Below, piece after piece: positions 20 through 8,282 of a DNA stretch of 37,840 bases (positions are counted from its first letter, which is position 1; the number at the start of each line of letters is the position of its first letter). The notes below the pieces were generated by a model. It did no database searches. It had not been told where the DNA came from and worked only from the letters and a program-made list of their open reading frames with translations. The DNA lies in IMG/VR virus record IMGVR_UViG_3300028767_000047, positions 1-37,840 of that record; one strand, written 5' to 3'. Position numbers and translations under genes: made by a program. Source of the DNA: a virus.

Positions 20-430
20 TTAGTTATTTAAAAAGTCCTGATATTGTTCCCTGAATGTTCGATCTGTTTCTAAATAGTTGCTAATTACCTTAACTGAATT
101 GAGAACGGTTGAATGATCCTTTTTGCCGAAATACTGACCGATTGCCTTTAATGATTGATTAGTATGTTTCCATGCCATATAATGCGCCATTTGTCGCCAA
201 ATACATTCCCTTCCAGTTAATTTATTAATCTGATCGACCGTAAATCCTGATTCTTTCTTAATACGATCCTCGACCTGATCAATACGATATTTAAACTCTT
301 TAACAGGTACCAATCTGGATTTTACTTCGATCAAACAAATAGCTTTGATTTGTTCTAACTTTTCATCTTCTGATAAGTCAGGATTTATTAATATTCTGGC
401 TATTTTGGTTAATTTATCTTTTTGTTTCAT
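20..430 (-). CDS. DnaA domain IV-like DNA-binding protein
   Basis: This 136-aa protein has a C-terminal half (about residues 60-122) that resembles domain IV of the replication initiator DnaA, the helix-turn-helix part that binds DnaA boxes. The signature FGKKDHSTV (101-109) matches the DnaA hallmark GxRDHSTV, and the preceding helices (QSLKAIGQYFG) fit. The AAA+ ATPase domain is absent, since the N-terminal 60 residues are charged and helical without a Walker motif. It could recruit or compete with host DnaA, mark a phage origin, or act as a regulator. It follows the helicase-methyltransferase gene after a 101-base gap that holds a 12-bp inverted repeat. Family identity is fairly sure; the role is inferred. 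Confidence 0.8.
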   Translation of the reverse strand: MKQKDKLTKIARILINPDLSEDEKLEQIKAICLIEVKSRLVPVKEFKYRIDQVEDRIKKESGFTVDQINKLTGRECIWRQMAHYMAWKHTNQSLKAIGQYFGKKDHSTVLNSVKVISNYLETDRTFREQYQDFLNN

Positions 431-446
431 GTTTAAAGTTTTAGCG

Positions 447-504
447 AATGACCAGATAGAAAAGTGACTTCAAGGCGAATTGAGTTGCTTCTTATCTGGT
501 CATT
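447..504. repeat. 12-bp perfect inverted repeat upstream of the DnaA-like gene
   Basis: Arms AATGACCAGATA (447-458) and TATCTGGTCATT (493-504) are separated by 34 bases. The repeat fills the gap between the helicase-methyltransferase stop (532) and the DnaA-like start (430). There is no T-tract directly after the stem and the loop is long, so it looks more like paired binding sites than an intrinsic terminator. The outward reading TTATCTGG shares TTATC with the DnaA box TTATnCACA, which is only suggestive. Confidence 0.6.
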
Positions 505-531
505 GTTCTGGTTTGGTTACATATTTGAGTT

Positions 532-2847
532 TTAAAACATTGATAACTGTCCATTTTGCTCAACAGCGGTCAAATGGTTTCTTTTATTAATTTCAAAGTA
601 AGAATCTTTTAACTCGATTGATATTGATTTTCTGCCCATTTTAAGAGCCTGATAACCTTCTGAACCAATACCACCAAACGGAGATAAAACGGTTTCGCCA
701 CGATTAGAATACAGCAAAATAATGCGCTCAATAACTCCTAATTGAAGTGGGCAAATATGCTTTTCATCGTTATTTGCTTTTGCGTTCATCCATTGAAGCG
801 TATTTGTTACGTCAATATCCATCCAAACAGGCGAAGCGTAACGCTGCCAAACTTGATGAGAGTACTGTTCTGTTTTTGAATATTTACTTTCCTGATCATA
901 TCCCCAATGTTCATTGAATCCGTTAACATCTCTCGGAAACTCATCGAATTGGTGCATTGGAACGTAATAAGTGAACCGGATATCATCCAACTGAATCGGC
1001 ACTTCGTTCTGTTCTTTTGTCTTAAAACAAAGTACACGATCGGCAATTCCGGCACGAATAATACTCATATCTTTGGTAACCTGTTTATGAGCTAATCCGA
1101 TTGTTTTTGTTCGTACAGCTGCCAAAAGTGGATCTTTCCAGATAGTAAAATCTGAATGTAAAAACATACCGATTGATTCAAACATATCGCTGATCATGTC
1201 AGGGAAACGTCTTAATCCGATAAATCCATCTCTACCTTTTTGAGTAGGTAAGTTCATACAATGAATTGCAATAATACGTCCGGGTTTAATTACCCTTTTA
1301 AGTTCGTTAGCCAAATACCTGAATTGTTCAACAAATTGATCATATCCCGATACGTTGCCCATATCCTCAATATAATTCGAGTATGTGTATAAATCTGCAA
1401 ACGGAGGACTGAACACAATTAAATCAACTGAGTTGTCCGATACTTCTTTAATCCTTTGTACGCAGTCACCACGCATTAACCAGAAATTATCTGATTTTAA
1501 ATCTTCTGAGTTCATTGAATAATTTGTTAGTTTATTATTTAAATTTTTAGTTACAGCTTTGACCATGTTTAATTGCATTGATTCAAATGATTTTTGCTTA
1601 TCCTGTAATATTTTCAGAACATTAATCATCCGGTCGGTAGTTACCATGTAACAAGTTACTTTTTCCTTTCTTCCAAATCTCCACGATCTTCTCATCGCCT
1701 GATAAGTTCCTTCAAAGCTAAAATCAATCGAATCGAATATTTGTATTCCGCAATTTTGATAATTTAATCCCTGAGAAGCAATAGACTGTTTTGTGATTAA
1801 TATTTGAAAATCATTGTGAGCAAATCCAAGTAAGTCTTTTTCTTTCTTTTCATTGGAGTCTGAACCCTGAACATTGCGACAGTCATAACCAAGTGCAGTT
1901 AATTGTTTATAGATGTTTTTAGCTTCATCATTCTGTTTTGTCCAAACAATAATCTGTTCAGTTTTTGGAAGCAACTCTATAATTTCAATAGTCTTTTTAA
2001 TTCGTTCTGTTTCAGTTTCCCGAAGTGATGAATTATAATCAGTTGCATTAACCGCAATACCCGGGAACATTACACCGTCTGGAAGTGGAGTTGAAACTTG
2101 CAATTCTACTATTTCAAGTTCTGGTAAATCAAATCCGGGTGCATCAAATCCAATATCTTTAGGGTGTGAATACATTATAGACCATGTACTAACAAACTCA
2201 TAAAATTTATCAATTGCATGACCTTTTAACCGCCATTTTTGAGTTGATTGCATATCATTAACAAAAAACATGGCAAGCATTTCATTGTACGTCATAGCAT
2301 CTAATAATTGGCTATGGTTGCCAAGTTCCATCGGATCGTTCGGTGAAGGTGTTGCTGAAAAACAGAATTTATACGGAGTCTTTTTGAATGTATCAATCAG
2401 TAAGTTTCTAAACTTGCCTTGTTCGTTTTTTAGGATAGAACTTTCATCCAGACAAACACATCCATATTTTTCAGTATCAATGTTTTCAAGTTGATCGTAG
2501 TTAGCAATACTGATATTTGAATCTTCTGTAAACCATTTTACTTCAATTCCAAACTTAACACCTTGCTCGATTGTTTGTCCGGTAACTGCCAAAGGTGCTA
2601 AAATTAAAACAGGTTTTTGTGTCTTTAAAAATACTTGATGAGCAATTTCAAGTTGCATTGGTGTTTTACCCTGTCCGGTATTGGCAAAAATTGCATACTT
2701 GCCGGATTTTAATGCTCGCTTAACTGTAAACTTCTGGAAGTCAAAAAGCATCGGATTAAGTTCTGATTCATCAATATCAAAACCTGATTCAATAATTTGC
2801 TTTTGTTTGGTCTTTAAAAAATCTTCGTAGGTTAATTCTTTGTTCAT
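532..2847 (-). CDS. SF2 helicase fused to an N4/N6-type DNA methyltransferase
   Basis: This 771-aa protein has two enzymatic parts. The N-terminal part is an SF2 helicase/ATPase: Walker A ANTGQGKT (55-62), motif II DESS (134-137), motif III SATPSP (164-169) and motif VI QAMRRSWRFGR (383-393). The C-terminal part is a beta-class amino-methyltransferase: catalytic motif IV SPPF (480-483), followed much later by the AdoMet-binding motif I region SPFGGIG (about 722-728), the order expected for that class. SPPF/SPPY is common in N4-cytosine enzymes, but the modified base cannot be decided here. Likely roles are protection of phage DNA from host restriction, with the helicase part perhaps acting as a translocase. 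It has its own promoter at 2878-2931. Confidence 0.85.
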   Translation of the reverse strand: MNKELTYEDFLKTKQKQIIESGFDIDESELNPMLFDFQKFTVKRALKSGKYAIFANTGQGKTPMQLEIAHQVFLKTQKPVLILAPLAVTGQTIEQGVKFGIEVKWFTEDSNISIANYDQLENIDTEKYGCVCLDESSILKNEQGKFRNLLIDTFKKTPYKFCFSATPSPNDPMELGNHSQLLDAMTYNEMLAMFFVNDMQSTQKWRLKGHAIDKFYEFVSTWSIMYSHPKDIGFDAPGFDLPELEIVELQVSTPLPDGVMFPGIAVNATDYNSSLRETETERIKKTIEIIELLPKTEQIIVWTKQNDEAKNIYKQLTALGYDCRNVQGSDSNEKKEKDLLGFAHNDFQILITKQSIASQGLNYQNCGIQIFDSIDFSFEGTYQAMRRSWRFGRKEKVTCYMVTTDRMINVLKILQDKQKSFESMQLNMVKAVTKNLNNKLTNYSMNSEDLKSDNFWLMRGDCVQRIKEVSDNSVDLIVFSPPFADLYTYSNYIEDMGNVSGYDQFVEQFRYLANELKRVIKPGRIIAIHCMNLPTQKGRDGFIGLRRFPDMISDMFESIGMFLHSDFTIWKDPLLAAVRTKTIGLAHKQVTKDMSIIRAGIADRVLCFKTKEQNEVPIQLDDIRFTYYVPMHQFDEFPRDVNGFNEHWGYDQESKYSKTEQYSHQVWQRYASPVWMDIDVTNTLQWMNAKANNDEKHICPLQLGVIERIILLYSNRGETVLSPFGGIGSEGYQALKMGRKSISIELKDSYFEINKRNHLTAVEQNGQLSMF

Positions 2848-2877
2848 GTTTTAATTTTAGTCGTTATTAATATTTTA

Positions 2878-2931
2878 CAAAAATACTTTTAATGAATTTA
2901 GTTGAATGTTAATTGTATGTGTTATAAAACA
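2878..2931 (-). promoter_or_regulatory. Early-type promoter A with upstream element
   Basis: Read on the minus strand, the element TGTTTTATA (2923-2931) is followed 37 nt later by the -7 box TATTTTTG (2878-2885), a match to the Bacteroidota consensus TAnnTTTG. A CAAC tetramer (2901-2904) lies between them. The ATG of the helicase-methyltransferase gene is 30 nt downstream of the box. Three other intergenic regions share this arrangement (4010-4063, 6272-6325, 9026-9080). Confidence 0.6.
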
Positions 2932-3348
2932 CTAATCAGTTCTTGTTTCGTTATAACGCATCTTTGATTCTTTCTCGGATTGCAAATCTATTCCGTAATT
3001 TAAAGCATAAGCATCGCAAACGTGACTAATATCTGAAAGTTCTTCGTTTTCATTAAACTTATCGTTATTCAATAAAGCTAATTCAAGTTCTAAAATTTCC
3101 TCTTTCATTTTATCTATAAAGTCTTGCTTTGTAGTTTCAGAATTTATCAATCCACGTTTAACCGTAGAATTGTAATTCCTTAGTGCGACCTCTTCCGGTG
3201 TTAATCTATCAACAACCGTTTCAGGATCGAAATATATATGGCATCGCATATAATTATCTTCGCATGGTTCGACCATTATTAGCTCCACTGCTTCAACTCC
3301 TTGAAGTTGTTGAATCTGTTTGATTAATATTGATTTTTTACTGCTCAT
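2932..3348 (-). CDS. MazG-like NTP pyrophosphohydrolase
   Basis: From the ATG at 3348 the product is 138 aa; a TTG two codons upstream is a less likely start. The C-terminal half carries the EExxE...ExxD metal-binding pattern of all-alpha MazG/dUTPase-type pyrophosphohydrolases: E83, E84 and E87 in KEEILELE, then E103 and D106 in EELSD, followed by a conserved-looking K...RYN tail. Such phage enzymes hydrolyse non-canonical or alarmone nucleotides. The first 70 residues form a domain I do not recognise. The start overlaps the stop of the pentapeptide-repeat gene by 11 nt, so the two are translationally linked. The hydrolase call is moderate. Confidence 0.55.
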   Translation of the reverse strand: MSSKKSILIKQIQQLQGVEAVELIMVEPCEDNYMRCHIYFDPETVVDRLTPEEVALRNYNSTVKRGLINSETTKQDFIDKMKEEILELELALLNNDKFNENEELSDISHVCDAYALNYGIDLQSEKESKMRYNETRTD

Positions 3349-3985
3349 TTTCAAGTACTTTTAATCGTTCAACACCTTGACGATGAAATTTATTTACATA
3401 CTCTAAAATATTAGCGTAAATCTGTTTTTCTTCATCGGTTGAATTGTCACAACTTGAAATAAGTGATGCAAAATGAAAGGCAATCTGAGTTCTGATTTTA
3501 ATGTCTGTTTTCATTTTTAATGAACCGCACCATAACGGAAAGCATGACATATCCAGATTAGCAGATTCCAGATTAGCAAATTCCAGATTAGCCAATTTCA
3601 GATTAGCAAATTTCAGATTAGCAGATTTCAGATTAGCAAATTCCAGATTAGCAGATTCCAGATTAGCAGATTTCAGATTAGCAAATTCCAGATTAGCAGA
3701 TTCCAGATTAGCAGATTTCAGATTAGCAGATTTCATATTAGCAGATTCCAGATTAGCAGATTCCAGATTAGCAGATTTCATATTAGCAGATTCCAGATTA
3801 GCAAATTTCAGATTAGCAGATTTCAGATTAGCAGATTCCAGATTAGCAAATTCCAGATTAGCATATTTCAGATTACACTCAAAGTTCCATTTAATTGATA
3901 ATGAAAATCTCATATATCTATTAAACTTTATTACATCATTTTTTAATAAAAATACTAATCTGTTTTTTAATGTTTGGTTTTTCAT
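3338..3985 (-). CDS. Pentapeptide-repeat protein 1
   Basis: This 215-aa protein has 21 uninterrupted pentapeptides of the form AN(L/M)xx at residues 42-146 (ANLES, ANLKS, ANLEF and variants). That pattern folds into a right-handed quadrilateral beta-helix in the known family, some members of which mimic DNA and inhibit gyrase. A basic 41-residue N-terminus precedes the helix. A Cys-containing segment (DMSCFPLWCG) and a helical tail of about 65 residues follow it. The fourth and fifth positions are mostly E/K and S/F, so the helix faces would be strongly charged. It sits between a zinc-ribbon gene and the MazG-like gene and has its own promoter. Function unknown. Confidence 0.85.
   Translation of the reverse strand: MKNQTLKNRLVFLLKNDVIKFNRYMRFSLSIKWNFECNLKYANLEFANLESANLKSANLKFANLESANMKSANLESANLESANMKSANLKSANLESANLEFANLKSANLESANLEFANLKSANLKFANLKLANLEFANLESANLDMSCFPLWCGSLKMKTDIKIRTQIAFHFASLISSCDNSTDEEKQIYANILEYVNKFHRQGVERLKVLENEQ
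3548..3862. repeat. 15-bp tandem repeat, 21 units, inside pentapeptide gene 1
   Basis: Units of 15 bp such as CAGATTAGCAGATTC encode one pentapeptide each. They are nearly identical at the DNA level, differing mainly at the positions that alternate S/F and E/K codons. This suggests recent expansion by slippage or unequal exchange. Copy number could vary between relatives. Confidence 0.9.
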
Positions 3986-4009
3986 GTCGTTTTAGTTTTA
4001 AATTGTTTT

Positions 4010-4063
4010 CAAAGTTAATTTTTACTTTCTGGTTTAAAGAATATTGGTGTATGTTTAAAAACA
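4010..4063 (-). promoter_or_regulatory. Early-type promoter D (weaker element)
   Basis: The -7 box TAACTTTG (minus strand, 4010-4017) matches TAnnTTTG exactly. The upstream element TGTTTTTAA (4055-4063) differs from TGTTTTATA at two positions but lies 37 nt from the box, as in promoters A and B. AAAC at 4032-4035 corresponds to the intermediate tetramer. It would drive pentapeptide gene 1, whose ATG is 24 nt downstream of the box. Confidence 0.45.
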
Positions 4064-4069
4064 GTTATT

Positions 4070-4216
4070 CTAAATAAATTTACCAATAACTGGCCCGCAA
4101 CAATGATTGCAATCCTGACTTGATTGTTGTATATTTCCACAACACATACATTGGTAATAGTCTGGATTATCATCTTCGTATCGATCATCGTAGTCATCAT
4201 CAAAAAAGTCTGTCAT
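4070..4216 (-). CDS. Small acidic zinc-ribbon protein (48 aa)
   Basis: The N-terminus is very acidic (MTDFFDDDYDDRYEDD). Two Cys clusters follow: CMCC (residues 23-26) and CNHCC (36-40), a CxxC-type pair that could bind one zinc. The ATG at 4216 follows the typical leader AAAAACTAAAACT. It lies 11 bases after the NinB-like gene in the recombination operon and ends at a TAG before promoter D. It may be a DNA- or protein-binding accessory factor of recombination, or a host-takeover protein; no function is assigned. A longer open frame on the same strand in another phase (4015-4203) has no such features. Confidence 0.65.
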   Translation of the reverse strand: MTDFFDDDYDDRYEDDNPDYYQCMCCGNIQQSSQDCNHCCGPVIGKFI

Positions 4217-4227
4217 AGTTTTAGTTT

Positions 4228-4665
4228 TTAATAACCTATTTGTTTTAGGTAGTAATCGAATTGATTCGGAAAGCTAACTGATAGCTTAAGTTTTGCGAAA
4301 TGGTTAGTTAAAACGTCAAGAATAGTATTAATATCAGTCGTTGTTAACTTGGTCGTGCTTTCAATATCAAATAAGGTCTTTTGGATAGGTAGCCAGATAA
4401 ATTGCTTTACTAAATCTTTATCCCATTGCATTTCTAACGGATGACTAAATAGATCAATAGTCTGGAAATATAAACCATGATTATTTAGTGTTTCAGCGAC
4501 AAAGGTAAAGTAAAGATAAATAGCTCTATTTTGAGTGTTTGAGCGTGTTAATTTTACTTGCTTTATCTCAATGGTAGCTGATATACTTTTAAAGTAGTGC
4601 AGTTGATCTAACGCCTGAATATAGCCATCTGACGTTCCGGTGTTGTATGGTTTAGATTCTGACAT
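4228..4665 (-). CDS. NinB-like phage recombination-associated protein
   Basis: This 145-aa protein has the motif RSNTQNRAIY (41-50) and a later W81...VKQFIWLPIQ (86-95) segment, then STTKLTTTDIN. The (R/K)xxxQN start and the size recall NinB/Orf-type proteins, which help recombinases load on SSB-coated DNA in lambda-like phages, but the match is by pattern only. Its position directly behind the exonuclease gene (stop and start share one base) supports a role in recombination. It could also be an unrelated phage family with the same QN motif. Confidence 0.45.
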   Translation of the reverse strand: MSESKPYNTGTSDGYIQALDQLHYFKSISATIEIKQVKLTRSNTQNRAIYLYFTFVAETLNNHGLYFQTIDLFSHPLEMQWDKDLVKQFIWLPIQKTLFDIESTTKLTTTDINTILDVLTNHFAKLKLSVSFPNQFDYYLKQIGY

Positions 4666-5279
4666 TACTTAAAATAGTTTTTGATTGTCTGGAATATTTC
4701 GCCTTTTTTAGTTATTTCTGAAATGATCTTTTCATCCCGATAAACCCTAAACTTTGAACATTCGTTTTCCTGAATTTCCCTAGCAAAGTTTTCCTCATCA
4801 TTGTAAGAATCAACTGAAACAAAGACAAGATTTGCGCTTTCCAATTCGGCACAAAATAATTGAACTTGAACTTGATAATAGTATTTTTTAAAGTTCTTTA
4901 GAATCATTTCTTTTTGTGCTTTTTCATCAAGTCCTAACATTGGAATAATCAAACCGATATAGTCTGAAAAATGAATAGTTTTCATTTCATCAAAATCAAT
5001 TACCTTACCACCGTTTATTTTTGCAAAATCTATGCTTGATGTGAAAACGTCCATTTCTTTATTGGTTACCTTATACTGGATAAAGTAATCATCTGAAAGA
5101 AGTTTTAAGTAGTTCTGTTCAAGTATTGCGCCTGTTCTTAGTGCATCTATCGGACTTGCCAAAGCGTTATAATAAGGTTTGTATTCATCAACAAATTTCC
5201 TCATTAAATCGCCAAATCCTTTCGTATGTATTCCTGACATTAAGGCAGAAATATCACCGCTTCCGATTGTTAGGTTCAT
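4665..5279 (-). CDS. YqaJ/RecB-family exonuclease
   Basis: This 204-aa protein fits the PD-(D/E)XK nuclease fold of phage YqaJ/lambda-exo-like enzymes: RTGAILE (48-54) resembles the usual R.G...E, D84 in SSIDF supplies the metal ligand, FDEMK (96-100) gives the E-x-K pair, and YYYQVQVQL (133-141) matches the conserved Y..QVQ helix. Such enzymes resect double-stranded ends to expose 3' single strands. Its ATG overlaps the stop of the ERF gene by 4 nt, forming a classic exonuclease and annealing-protein pair. The EMK motif in place of the usual EIK/EVK is a small variation. Confidence 0.75.
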   Translation of the reverse strand: MNLTIGSGDISALMSGIHTKGFGDLMRKFVDEYKPYYNALASPIDALRTGAILEQNYLKLLSDDYFIQYKVTNKEMDVFTSSIDFAKINGGKVIDFDEMKTIHFSDYIGLIIPMLGLDEKAQKEMILKNFKKYYYQVQVQLFCAELESANLVFVSVDSYNDEENFAREIQENECSKFRVYRDEKIISEITKKGEIFQTIKNYFK

Positions 5280-5905
5280 ATTAATTTCTTTTCAGAGTAA
5301 GTTTTGAAAATCACTAAAATATCTTTCTCTGTAATATCTGAAAGTTCACCAACATTAAAGTGCTGTAAAATCTTTTGGCAAGTTTCAGAGTTTTTCAATA
5401 GATAGTTTTCAACTAATACTCTTTTTTCTGACGGTGTTTTTGCGGTTGTTGTTTCTTTTGATTTTTCGCCGTCTGGGTCTTCACCTGTTGCAATTTTATA
5501 AGCATTTAAAAGAGCGTATTTTCTTGCATAGGTTGAAGCCTTGCCAAATCCTTTATCACCCGAATCAATACCTTTGCCGAAAGATTCAATTTCAATTGAT
5601 TGTGTTGTATCTTCCAAATCAATAATCTTAACAGTCATTTTGATCGTATCTACATAAGTCAATCCTTCTTCGTTGTTTTTCTTTTGAATACGGATAACTT
5701 CTGAATTTACAAGTTCCTGTTTGATAGGTATAGAAACAAGTTTAAACTTAGTTTCAGCGTCTTTGACCGCTAATGTAACGTCAATATCACTAACGGCTTT
5801 ATAACTGTAAGAACCACTTCCAACAGTCATATCTTTTGATATGTTTCTTACTTCGTTTGATACTGCCTGTATTTTCTCAAACAGGTTTAATTTTTGATTT
5901 TCCAT
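5276..5905 (-). CDS. erf: ERF-family single-strand annealing protein
   Basis: This 209-aa protein carries the ERF signature from about residue 109 to 145, including FGKGIDSGDKGFGKASTYARKY split around residue 120 and a downstream GEDPDG. ERF proteins (P22 Erf type) anneal complementary single strands during phage recombination and genome circularisation. The C-terminal 60 residues after the TTTAKTPSEK linker would be the variable tail, which in the family contacts SSB or other partners. The exonuclease gene follows with a 4-nt overlap. Length is typical. The start has a TAAAAATAACTAAAC leader. Confidence 0.85.
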   Translation of the reverse strand: MENQKLNLFEKIQAVSNEVRNISKDMTVGSGSYSYKAVSDIDVTLAVKDAETKFKLVSIPIKQELVNSEVIRIQKKNNEEGLTYVDTIKMTVKIIDLEDTTQSIEIESFGKGIDSGDKGFGKASTYARKYALLNAYKIATGEDPDGEKSKETTTAKTPSEKRVLVENYLLKNSETCQKILQHFNVGELSDITEKDILVIFKTYSEKKLI

Positions 5906-5917
5906 GTTTAGTTATTT

Positions 5918-6241
5918 TTAGATTTCATAATACTTTGCAATCATTTCAAATACTTTGTCGAAATTTTCTTTAATTTCCTCGCCATCATAAAAGAAAGTCA
6001 TTTTAAAATCACAATAACGATCTTCAATATATGTTTGGTTGTTTTCGTCTTTGTCGGAATAGTAAGTTGAAAGTTTCAATTCAGCTTCGATATTGATATT
6101 ATCAACATTTTCAAATCCGTTTAATTCTGATAGATCAAACTGAAGTGATTGTTTTTGATCTTCGGTGTTAAACTTTGAAACTAAATAATCAAATACTTGT
6201 TTCAATTCCGATTCGTTTAATTCAATTGCTGTGATTTTCAT
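5918..6241 (-). CDS. Acidic protein of unknown function
   Basis: This 107-aa acidic protein has alternating hydrophobic and charged segments (for example KITAIELNESELKQVFDYL) and no motif I recognise. It is the first gene behind early promoter B and lies 12 bases before ERF, so it is probably made together with the recombination proteins. An accessory or anti-host role is possible, but nothing in the sequence shows it. Confidence 0.7.
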   Translation of the reverse strand: MKITAIELNESELKQVFDYLVSKFNTEDQKQSLQFDLSELNGFENVDNINIEAELKLSTYYSDKDENNQTYIEDRYCDFKMTFFYDGEEIKENFDKVFEMIAKYYEI

Positions 6242-6271
6242 TTGGTTTGTTTTACTTGATTAATACTGAAA

Positions 6272-6325: not shown

Positions 6326-6776
6326 TCATTTGAAAGTTTATTTCATTTATTCTCATACAACTTTATATCCGTAATCTTAATAGCTTCGATCTGTTTAAAA
6401 TTAGATCAATATTAAAGAAAACAGTTGAAAAACTTTTTTGACTACCTTTTTAGTTTTTCCTACCTCAATCATAAAAACAGTATCCGTACTGCCATTCGTT
6501 TTATCAAGTGACTAAAAAATAGGATTACGTCTGACGTTGTGAGTTGTCCACATTGCGCCAACTGGTTGTACTTGATAAAATATATTCATGTGAAGTTCCG
6601 GTCTTTTTGCAGAATAAGGAGTCTGTTTGTGGAGTAAGACTTCGAGCATAACCACGCAATAAAATGATAAAACCACGCCCAAATAAATGGACATGGTTAA
6701 ATCTTTGGTTTGCTACAACCGGAAGTCTATCACGTTTGATAGATATTGTTTGAAATGAATCGACTATGTGTTTTCC
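6326..6776. other. Non-coding island with nested inverted repeats
   Basis: I find no convincing gene between 6242 and 6838. Positions 6520-6780 are visibly richer in G+C than their surroundings. An 11-bp perfect inverted repeat TTTTATCAAGT (6499-6509) / ACTTGATAAAA (6570-6580) brackets TTGTCCACA (6544-6552), one mismatch from the DnaA box TTATCCACA. A 7-bp hairpin TCTATCA/TGATAGA lies at 6726-6743, and TTCCGGT (6596-6602) can pair with ACCGGAA (6718-6724). The minus strand has open frames of 60 and 89 codons with poor protein character. One of them continues in frame past its TAG for 36 codons. A structured RNA, an origin or a decayed gene would each fit. Confidence 0.4.
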
Positions 6777-6828
6777 AAATTGTAGCATATACAAAAGTAA
6801 TATTTACTTCTGACATATACTACAATTT
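6777..6828 (-). promoter_or_regulatory. Large interrupted dyad (operator, terminator or both)
   Basis: Outer arms AAATTGTAG (6777-6785) and CTACAATTT (6820-6828) are perfect 9-bp complements. ATAT/ATAT steps follow inside, then a perfect inner hairpin AAGTAA (6795-6800) / TTACTT (6804-6809). It begins 10 bases after the stop of the 61-aa gene. A -7-like box TACTTTTG (minus strand, 6792-6799) lies inside the dyad, with TTG 23 nt upstream. The dyad could be an A+T-rich terminator for the upstream operon and an operator over a promoter firing into the non-coding island. Confidence 0.5.
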
Positions 6829-6838
6829 AAAGTAAAAT

Positions 6839-7024
6839 CTATATCGCTTTCAGCAAATAAGTTTTGCTGTCAATAATTACAATCTTATGTTTGCGTTTTG
6901 ATTCACGTTCTTTGCACATTTTAAGCAACTTTAAGGCTCGATCTCTGGATGAACCTGTTGCTTGTTCGTGGATGCAATTTTCGTGGGTATTTGGTTCGTT
7001 TTTGAACTTCTTATTCCGGCTCAT
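6839..7024 (-). CDS. Small basic protein of unknown function
   Basis: This 61-aa Lys/Arg-rich protein (MSRNKKFKNEPNTHENCIHEQ... then a helical LKLLKMCKERESKRKHK stretch) has two or three Cys/His residues but no clean zinc motif. Its ATG overlaps the stop of the upstream membrane-protein gene by 4 nt, so it is the last gene of that operon, just before the large dyad. Nucleic-acid binding is plausible from charge alone. Confidence 0.6.
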   Translation of the reverse strand: MSRNKKFKNEPNTHENCIHEQATGSSRDRALKLLKMCKERESKRKHKIVIIDSKTYLLKAI

Positions 7025-7581
7025 AGTTGTACTAGTTTAAAGTCTTTTTTGTAAACTAAATATGAAGCATTGTCGTTTCCAATAAGAAATAATAAATTAT
7101 CTTTATTTGATTTAATATTTAATTCCTTATACCTGTTATTCATGTTGAATAATTCTTTCATGTAATCCTGATCATTGATACATTCCCATAAATCAGAATT
7201 AATGGATTCAACCACTTTTTTAGTATGCTTTTGGTGTAAGGCTCTTTCTTTCCAATATTTGATAGACTTTAAATTGTCTTGATTGCATGATTTGAGTAAT
7301 TTGTTTTCGCTTGTCAATTTAGTAATTTCTACTATTGCATCCTCAAAATACTTTTTACGCTCTGCAATTTCACAGTCTTGCAACTTGATTTGGTTATCGT
7401 AATCTTCAATAGTCTGAGCCGATACGGTATTGTAAAACTTATAGTCTTTTAGCTTCTTTTTCGCTGATTTAAGACGTTTAAAGAATACCATTGCTAGGAT
7501 AGCAAAGAACAGGATTAAAACTACGTAAATTAACGTCCATACATTCATAAAGTCTGATAAAAATTCGATTAAGTTTTTCAT
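7021..7581 (-). CDS. Membrane-anchored coiled-coil protein
   Basis: This 186-aa protein has one N-terminal membrane segment (about residues 14-34, VWTLIYVVLILFFAILAMVFF) followed by a basic stretch and a long charged helical region (35-125) likely to form a coiled coil. The end (Y-L-V-Y-K-K-D-F) is a short soluble tail. Topology resembles an i-spanin or a membrane tether, but it lies in the accessory early operon rather than next to the endolysin, so I do not assign a lysis role. Function unknown. Confidence 0.7.
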   Translation of the reverse strand: MKNLIEFLSDFMNVWTLIYVVLILFFAILAMVFFKRLKSAKKKLKDYKFYNTVSAQTIEDYDNQIKLQDCEIAERKKYFEDAIVEITKLTSENKLLKSCNQDNLKSIKYWKERALHQKHTKKVVESINSDLWECINDQDYMKELFNMNNRYKELNIKSNKDNLLFLIGNDNASYLVYKKDFKLVQL

Positions 7582-7592
7582 GTGATTTGATT

Positions 7593-8282
7593 TTAATTAT
7601 ATTGTTTTGCTTGTTCTTTAGAAGTAAAAAAGTGAATACCTGTCGAGCATTCATTCCATCGGTTGTCATCAAAGTTTTCTACTGTTACCGTTTCACCTAT
7701 TTTGTAAATGAATTTATAATCGTAATTTGATGCAATTTCAGTTAACTGACATTCAGAACCATCTAAATTTTCAAATGATAATACTTTAGCTTCTGATGCA
7801 CGACATTTTAAAGAGGTTGCTGAACTTCTTTTTGATGTTTCTGTTATTAACAGTTTTATTATTTTACCAGATGCTTTTTTAAAGGCAATAAATGAACCCT
7901 CCTCAGGACAAGAAATATTAAAATATCCTGTATTCTCATTTATTTTTGCACGTCTCAGGTTTGCACCGATCAGGTTTGCACCGATCAGGTTTGCATCGCT
8001 CAGGTTTGCACCGATCAGGTTTGCACGTCTCAGGTTTGCACCGATCAGGTTTGCACCGATCAGGTTTGCACGTCTCAGGTTTGCACCGATCAGGTTTGCA
8101 CCGCTCAGGTTTGCATCGCTCAGGTTTGCATCGATCAGGTCTGCATCGCTCAGGTTTGCATCGATCAGGTCTGCACCTGATTTAATGGCATTAATTACCG
8201 TTTCTTTTACTGAGTTGTTTTCACATTCATATTCAAATAATAACGAACCCCAAATAGTTTTAATTTCGATTTTAGTTTTCAT
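7593..8282 (-). CDS. Pentapeptide-repeat protein 2 with DUF5758-like C-terminus
   Basis: This 229-aa protein has 15 pentapeptides A(N/D)Lxx at residues 37-111 ([15 protein letters not shown] and variants), predicted to form a short right-handed beta-helix. The C-terminal region (about 130-229) has the motifs of the DUF5758-type domain found in phage pentapeptide proteins: [16 protein letters not shown], then [15 protein letters not shown] and SKEQA near the end. The biochemical role of that domain is not known to me. It sits in a run of small accessory genes between promoter C and the dyad. The start follows the leader ACTAAAACTAC. Confidence 0.85.
7950..8174. repeat. 15-bp tandem repeat, 15 units, inside pentapeptide gene 2
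   Basis: Units of the form AGGTTTGCACCGATC encode one pentapeptide each. The variable triplets (CCG, CGT, TCG) set the IG, RR and SD endings. Units are almost identical, indicating recent expansion. The unit is unrelated in sequence to that of pentapeptide gene 1, so the two arrays arose separately. Confidence 0.9.

Follow-up and report, generated by a model that had tools for sequence, protein, structure and literature searches.

A stand-alone DnaA domain IV protein and a separable, covarying intercistronic hairpin in a phage replication module

What does a phage do with the DNA-binding end of DnaA alone, and is the inverted repeat that lies beside its gene the site to which this protein binds? 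The window, by which we mean the whole stretch of DNA analyzed, is a linear 37.8-kb IMG/VR virus record whose gene content reads as that of a virus with Bacteroidota as host group. It terminates just beyond the gene in question, here called mini-DnaA (Table 1). Related contigs (L002/L003 and L004) share the mini-DnaA stretch and then diverge into different genes, and the assembly break past mini-DnaA may come from these differing continuations. Elsewhere in the window, two minus-strand ORFs (3338-3985 and 7593-8282) have sequences that look like pentapeptide repeats, and a 15-bp tandem-repeat array underlies each.

Table 1. Features of the mini-DnaA gene and the adjoining hairpin in the window.
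Feature	Position	Strand	Basis
mini-DnaA gene, stand-alone DnaA domain IV protein, 136 aa	20..430	minus	ORF, Pfam, AF2/Foldseek, dN/dS
Region coding for the Bac_DnaA_C (domain IV) match	86..280	minus	profile match
FGKKDHSTV codons, recognition-helix signature, residues 101-109	104..130	minus	translation, alignment to 1J1V
Hairpin element as conserved, flanks included (covariance model R1)	429..514	minus	R1 matches, compensatory changes
Hairpin 3' arm on the coding strand (TATCTGGTCATT)	447..458	minus	repeat search, pair count
Hairpin 5' arm on the coding strand (AATGACCAGATA)	493..504	minus	repeat search, pair count
Upstream neighbor, helicase-DNA methyltransferase fusion	532..2847	minus	Pfam

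The preliminary description spoke of a 136-aa protein that carries FGKKDHSTV and lacks an ATPase, and both the ORF and Pfam agree. Bac_DnaA_C matches at residues 51-115 (E=3e-13, 50 bits against a cut-off of 31.5) and is the sole Pfam domain above cut-off, with no AAA+ domain found. The score above the curated cut-off and the domain IV fold place the protein in the Bac_DnaA_C family (PF08299), and it is not a full-length DnaA initiator, which would combine AAA+ domain III with domain IV. NCBIfam DnaA profiles align to it through their C-terminal ends only, with scores far under cut-off (for TIGR00362, 53 bits against 343.9). Where did such a protein come from? In two relatives (L059 and L063), the match starts at TIGR00362 position 312, ahead of domain IV, which suggests that the stand-alone form arose by truncation of an ancestral DnaA. 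PADLOC gave no result for mini-DnaA. An AlphaFold2 model built from an eight-sequence alignment has a mean pLDDT of 85.8, and the structural comparison with domain IV that had been proposed at the outset comes out in its favor: in Foldseek, the predicted fold superposes on 1J1V, E. coli DnaA domain IV complexed with DnaA-box DNA, with TMt 0.82 and an rmsd of 2.0 Å over 90 columns. Further Foldseek matches are the M. tuberculosis DnaA-DBD and B. subtilis DnaA (3PVP, 8BTG).

Does a protein with this fold still recognize a DnaA box? Residues of the 1J1V chain are numbered here by what we take to be the standard scheme. In DnaA, the residues that contact bases are R399, P423, D433, H434, T435, and H439 (PMC7561715). 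Their equivalents in the window protein are T72, K95, D105, H106, S107, and N111, so that two are identical, one is conservative, and three (those matching R399, P423, and H439) are replaced, the minor-groove Arg among them; the full set of six expected of a canonical DnaA-box binder is not present. The major-groove recognition helix, DH(S/T)TV, is preserved, and Arg at the R399 position is retained in the relatives in L011, L039, L041, L042, and L044 (alignment A2, profile match). Because three of the six base-contacting positions differ, mini-DnaA has probably moved away from the canonical DnaA box as its target, and it is doubtful whether it recognizes that box. Across the window, DnaA-box-like sites occur at chance level, with no enrichment and no cluster, and GC skew along the window shows no switch.

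Mini-DnaA is one of a family of proteins in which DnaA domain IV stands alone and whose genes lie in phage replication modules. A Bac_DnaA_C protein above cut-off was found in all 11 relative contigs scanned, and two had a second one; all related contigs are fragments. In L002, a second, divergent DnaA-domain-IV protein of 110 aa (6729-7061, plus strand) directly follows an AAA+ ATPase that reads as DnaC-like, and G009 also encodes two such proteins. A scan of a genome collection with the mini-DnaA protein returned two distant loci only, in Oscillospiraceae MAGs. The gene evolves under purifying selection, with a dN/dS of 0.15-0.19 between the window gene and its L006 or L038 versions, as given by simple Nei-Gojobori counts in which synonymous sites are near-saturated against L038. 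Neighbors of the relatives are recombination and replication genes, including HNH, a ResIII-type helicase, DUF6291 or DUF1376, DnaB, and a TOPRIM primase-helicase. A neighboring AAA+ ATPase reads as DnaC-like and another neighbor as RusA-like, the latter with no RusA match in Pfam. In L042, mini-DnaA, DUF1376, and the ATPase reading as DnaC-like are consecutive. The same contig carries the helicase half only of the helicase-methyltransferase (2261-3397), whose end overlaps the start of the DnaA-like gene, and further upstream an ORF (799-2124) that reads as a tyrosine integrase. Mini-DnaA closes its module in L038, L059, and L063, with convergent genes opposite, and has an internal position in the window lineage and L011.

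What, then, of the repeat? As the preliminary description had it, a perfect 12-bp inverted repeat sits just upstream of the gene. Its arms, AATGACCAGATA and TATCTGGTCATT, are separated by a spacer of 34 nt, and the near arm lies 16 bp 5' of the mini-DnaA ATG, within the 101-bp gap that follows the helicase-methyltransferase gene. Length alone does not make such a repeat rare, as 56 of the 200 dinucleotide-shuffled windows had one or more. The folding of the gap strand beats 200 of 200 gap shuffles (z=-4.8). The repeat is a real element and not a product of chance, and it is judged so because it is conserved in other phages. The window holds no additional copies, the arms contain no DnaA-box core, and Rfam gave chance-level matches only, none of them at the hairpin. 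As coding sequence the hairpin was rejected, since the window copy does not hold the frame open (ATG ACC AGA TAA) and a 2-nt length change breaks it in L057.

Pattern scans of IMG/VR contigs, made with exact patterns, located the element also in L011, L057, L059, and L061, and these together with the window copy were used to build covariance model R1. A search with R1 then found a sixth, far more divergent hairpin in G006 (33.3 bits, E about 1e-6), for which the score alone is independent of the model. The six occurrences (the window and five other phage contigs) represent three distinct stem sequences: GACC/GGTC in the window and L011, CCTC/GGGG in L057, L059, and L061, and CAACCGGG/CCGGTTG in G006. 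Across all stems, 6 of the 12 base pairs are altered on both sides yet still paired, G-U pairs counted. The pair count took its register from the conserved flanks, because MAFFT had set the right arm of the G006 copy one base off. In the first five copies, 94.6% of cells are paired, versus at most 46.7% after partner columns are slid. The 3' flank ATTCG is present in all six copies, and a 5' flank containing AAAAAT in all except the window. Compensatory changes that preserve pairing are what is expected of a structured RNA; they fit a DNA hairpin equally well, and with six hairpins and three distinct stems, few independent events lie behind the covariation. The other pattern matches (L007-L010, L012-L014, L016-L027, L028, L029, L031-L034, L060, and L062) were set aside as chance by their flanks, and those in L015 and L030 as repeats of contigs already included. 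The phage and plasmid collections gave no convincing match to the hairpin DNA. In a close contig, L005, the right arm alone remains, 5' of a different gene.

In the window, L011, L057, and L061, the hairpin stands shortly 5' of a start codon and in the same orientation. The gene before it differs by phage and may be a helicase-methyltransferase, a methyltransferase, a ParB-like protein, or a short gene that, by reading, is related to window 2932-3354. Several of these surroundings are worth recording. In L066, the helicase and methyltransferase that are fused in the window are two genes (3885-6244), directly upstream of the hairpin. Just 5' of the hairpin in L061 are PAPS-reductase/DUF3440 and ParB-N-like proteins (2490-3809 and 5159-5770), the former with weak similarity to DndC; these genes are possible DNA-modification cargo. 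A noncoding stretch past the hairpin in L059 (about 700-900) may be structured and has no Rfam match, and the ORF after it (1082-1696) reads as an HNH-type nuclease.

Do the gene and the hairpin belong together? The repeat is directly 5' of the mini-DnaA gene in the window, L002, L003, and L004, as would suit a model in which mini-DnaA binds the repeat and thereby controls its own gene. In L011 (G003), 0.5 kb holding small ORFs separates the two, and in three other contigs they are much farther from each other: the hairpin occupies about 10.05-10.1 kb of G012, where the DnaA-like gene lies at 4.3-4.7 kb, and the respective positions are 13.35-13.44 and 19.3-19.5 kb in G013, and 16.3 and 6.0-6.2 kb in G006. 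G014 has the hairpin and no DnaA-like protein was found in it, an absence that is not proof, as G014 is a fragment. Close relatives of the window gene in G011 (L006) and G004 (L038) have no hairpin by the R1 search. The mini-DnaA gene and the hairpin are two separable features, and their adjacency in the window is most likely incidental. The hairpin is probably not a mini-DnaA operator, because it is kept ~5-10 kb away from the gene or without it, because close mini-DnaA relatives do without it, and because the letters of its arms vary while pairing is kept; a DnaA-box core, as noted, is also missing. Control of the gene through the repeat is therefore very unlikely; in a variant of that model, the protein and the arms may have coevolved. 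Of the interpretation first offered, the DnaA-domain-IV protein without an ATPase and its predicted fold stand, and the repeat as its binding site is not supported. Might the hairpin, instead of serving in the sense RNA, terminate transcription that arrives from the other side, or be a DNA site at which modules are exchanged? The opposite strand has a T run after the hairpin (six T in four of six copies, five in one), L061 has convergent genes downstream, and the varying genes upstream would suit a site of exchange. As a terminator, however, the element would have an atypical loop of about 34 nt, the T run is absent from the window copy, and a consensus scan confined to loops of 3-8 called no terminator there, whichever strand of L057, the window, or L066 was read. 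We find this pair of alternatives doubtful, and consider the hairpin most likely an intercistronic RNA element. On the coding strand, it would act as RNA, for example in RNase III-type processing or as a stability or 5'-leader element, at a site that may form the junction of variable cargo genes and the next operon stretch.

How might mini-DnaA itself be used? As a stand-alone DnaA-type domain, it would dock on specific double-stranded DNA; because it has no AAA+ domain, it cannot melt DNA or build ATP-driven filaments by itself. Most likely, it would regulate the phage early/replication module in a sequence-specific way or serve that module as an adaptor. The leading guess, by analogy, is a GafY-like transcription switch. 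The last gene of a module before convergent genes is a usual location of a late-gene regulator, and a late switch fits L038, L059, and L063, where mini-DnaA ends its module; it is weakened by the window lineage and L011, where the gene sits inside. The second guess is an origin-binding protein that would mark the phage origin and recruit the helicase of the phage, or a helicase loader, to take over there, with ATPase activity coming from the loader or from host DnaA. The DnaC-like and helicase neighbors suit this role equally well, as do linkage to DnaB and primase-helicase genes and the gene row in L042. Against it, the window has neither the cluster of DnaA-box-like sites nor the skew switch that an origin might show, and the initiator role could already be filled by the DUF6291/DUF1376 proteins of these modules. 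An origin function is a possible reading that we rate as less probable than a regulatory one. It has also been suggested that mini-DnaA sequesters host DnaA sites; it would then compete with host DnaA for its boxes (TTATCCACA), blocking or retargeting host replication. The retained recognition helix speaks for such competition, yet half of the base-contacting residues are replaced and the gene would appear to belong to the replication module rather than to host-takeover genes, which makes this unlikely.

The account that we consider probable joins two parts: mini-DnaA would be a DNA-binding phage regulator or adaptor, and the hairpin a separate intercistronic element, probably acting as RNA. 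A bolder version, which we put forward tentatively, is that the hairpin represents an undescribed cis-acting RNA family at an exchange point for DNA-modification cargo and that mini-DnaAs are widespread, ATPase-free phage switches with changed DNA specificity. If mini-DnaA is a switch or origin marker, phages take from the host initiator its DNA-binding head and leave the motor behind, and the protein is small and easily tested. The hairpin, which is not in Rfam, would mark a junction where phages exchange DNA-modification genes.

How do these features compare with known systems? The operons of T7-type phages contain intercistronic RNase III hairpins. Like these, the window element is irregular, about 60 nt, intergenic, and shortly before a start codon; the likeness is one of form, as no relation in sequence is known and Rfam has no match for the element. 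With DnaA domain IV (PF08299; 1J1V, 3PVP, 8BTG), mini-DnaA has in common the fold, the RQ motif, and the DHSTV helix, and it differs from DnaA in being without domains I to III and in the replaced equivalents of R399, P423, and H439. The TnpA-REP proteins of subclass 2.1 carry a C-terminal Bac_DnaA_C extension and are another case of domain IV reused outside DnaA and linked to inverted repeats (PMC6006769). Unlike them, the window protein has no HuH transposase, and the window repeat is a covarying hairpin. GafY/HdaB of Caulobacter and the N-terminal domain of GafA, like mini-DnaA, are DnaA-domain-IV homologues without an ATPase and are linked to a phage-like element. Promoters in a prophage-like element are bound by GafY, a DnaA domain IV homologue (PMC9632790), and GafA has a DnaA-like N-terminal domain and contacts RNA polymerase omega (PMC9638019). 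These proteins are alphaproteobacterial and work with a partner, GafZ, or through the part of GafA that touches RNA polymerase omega; inspection of the neighbors of the window gene, made without a profile search, recognized no such partner. Mini-DnaA resembles GafY in domain content and phage setting, and is, in the same sense, a DnaA-domain-IV-only protein in a phage-like element.
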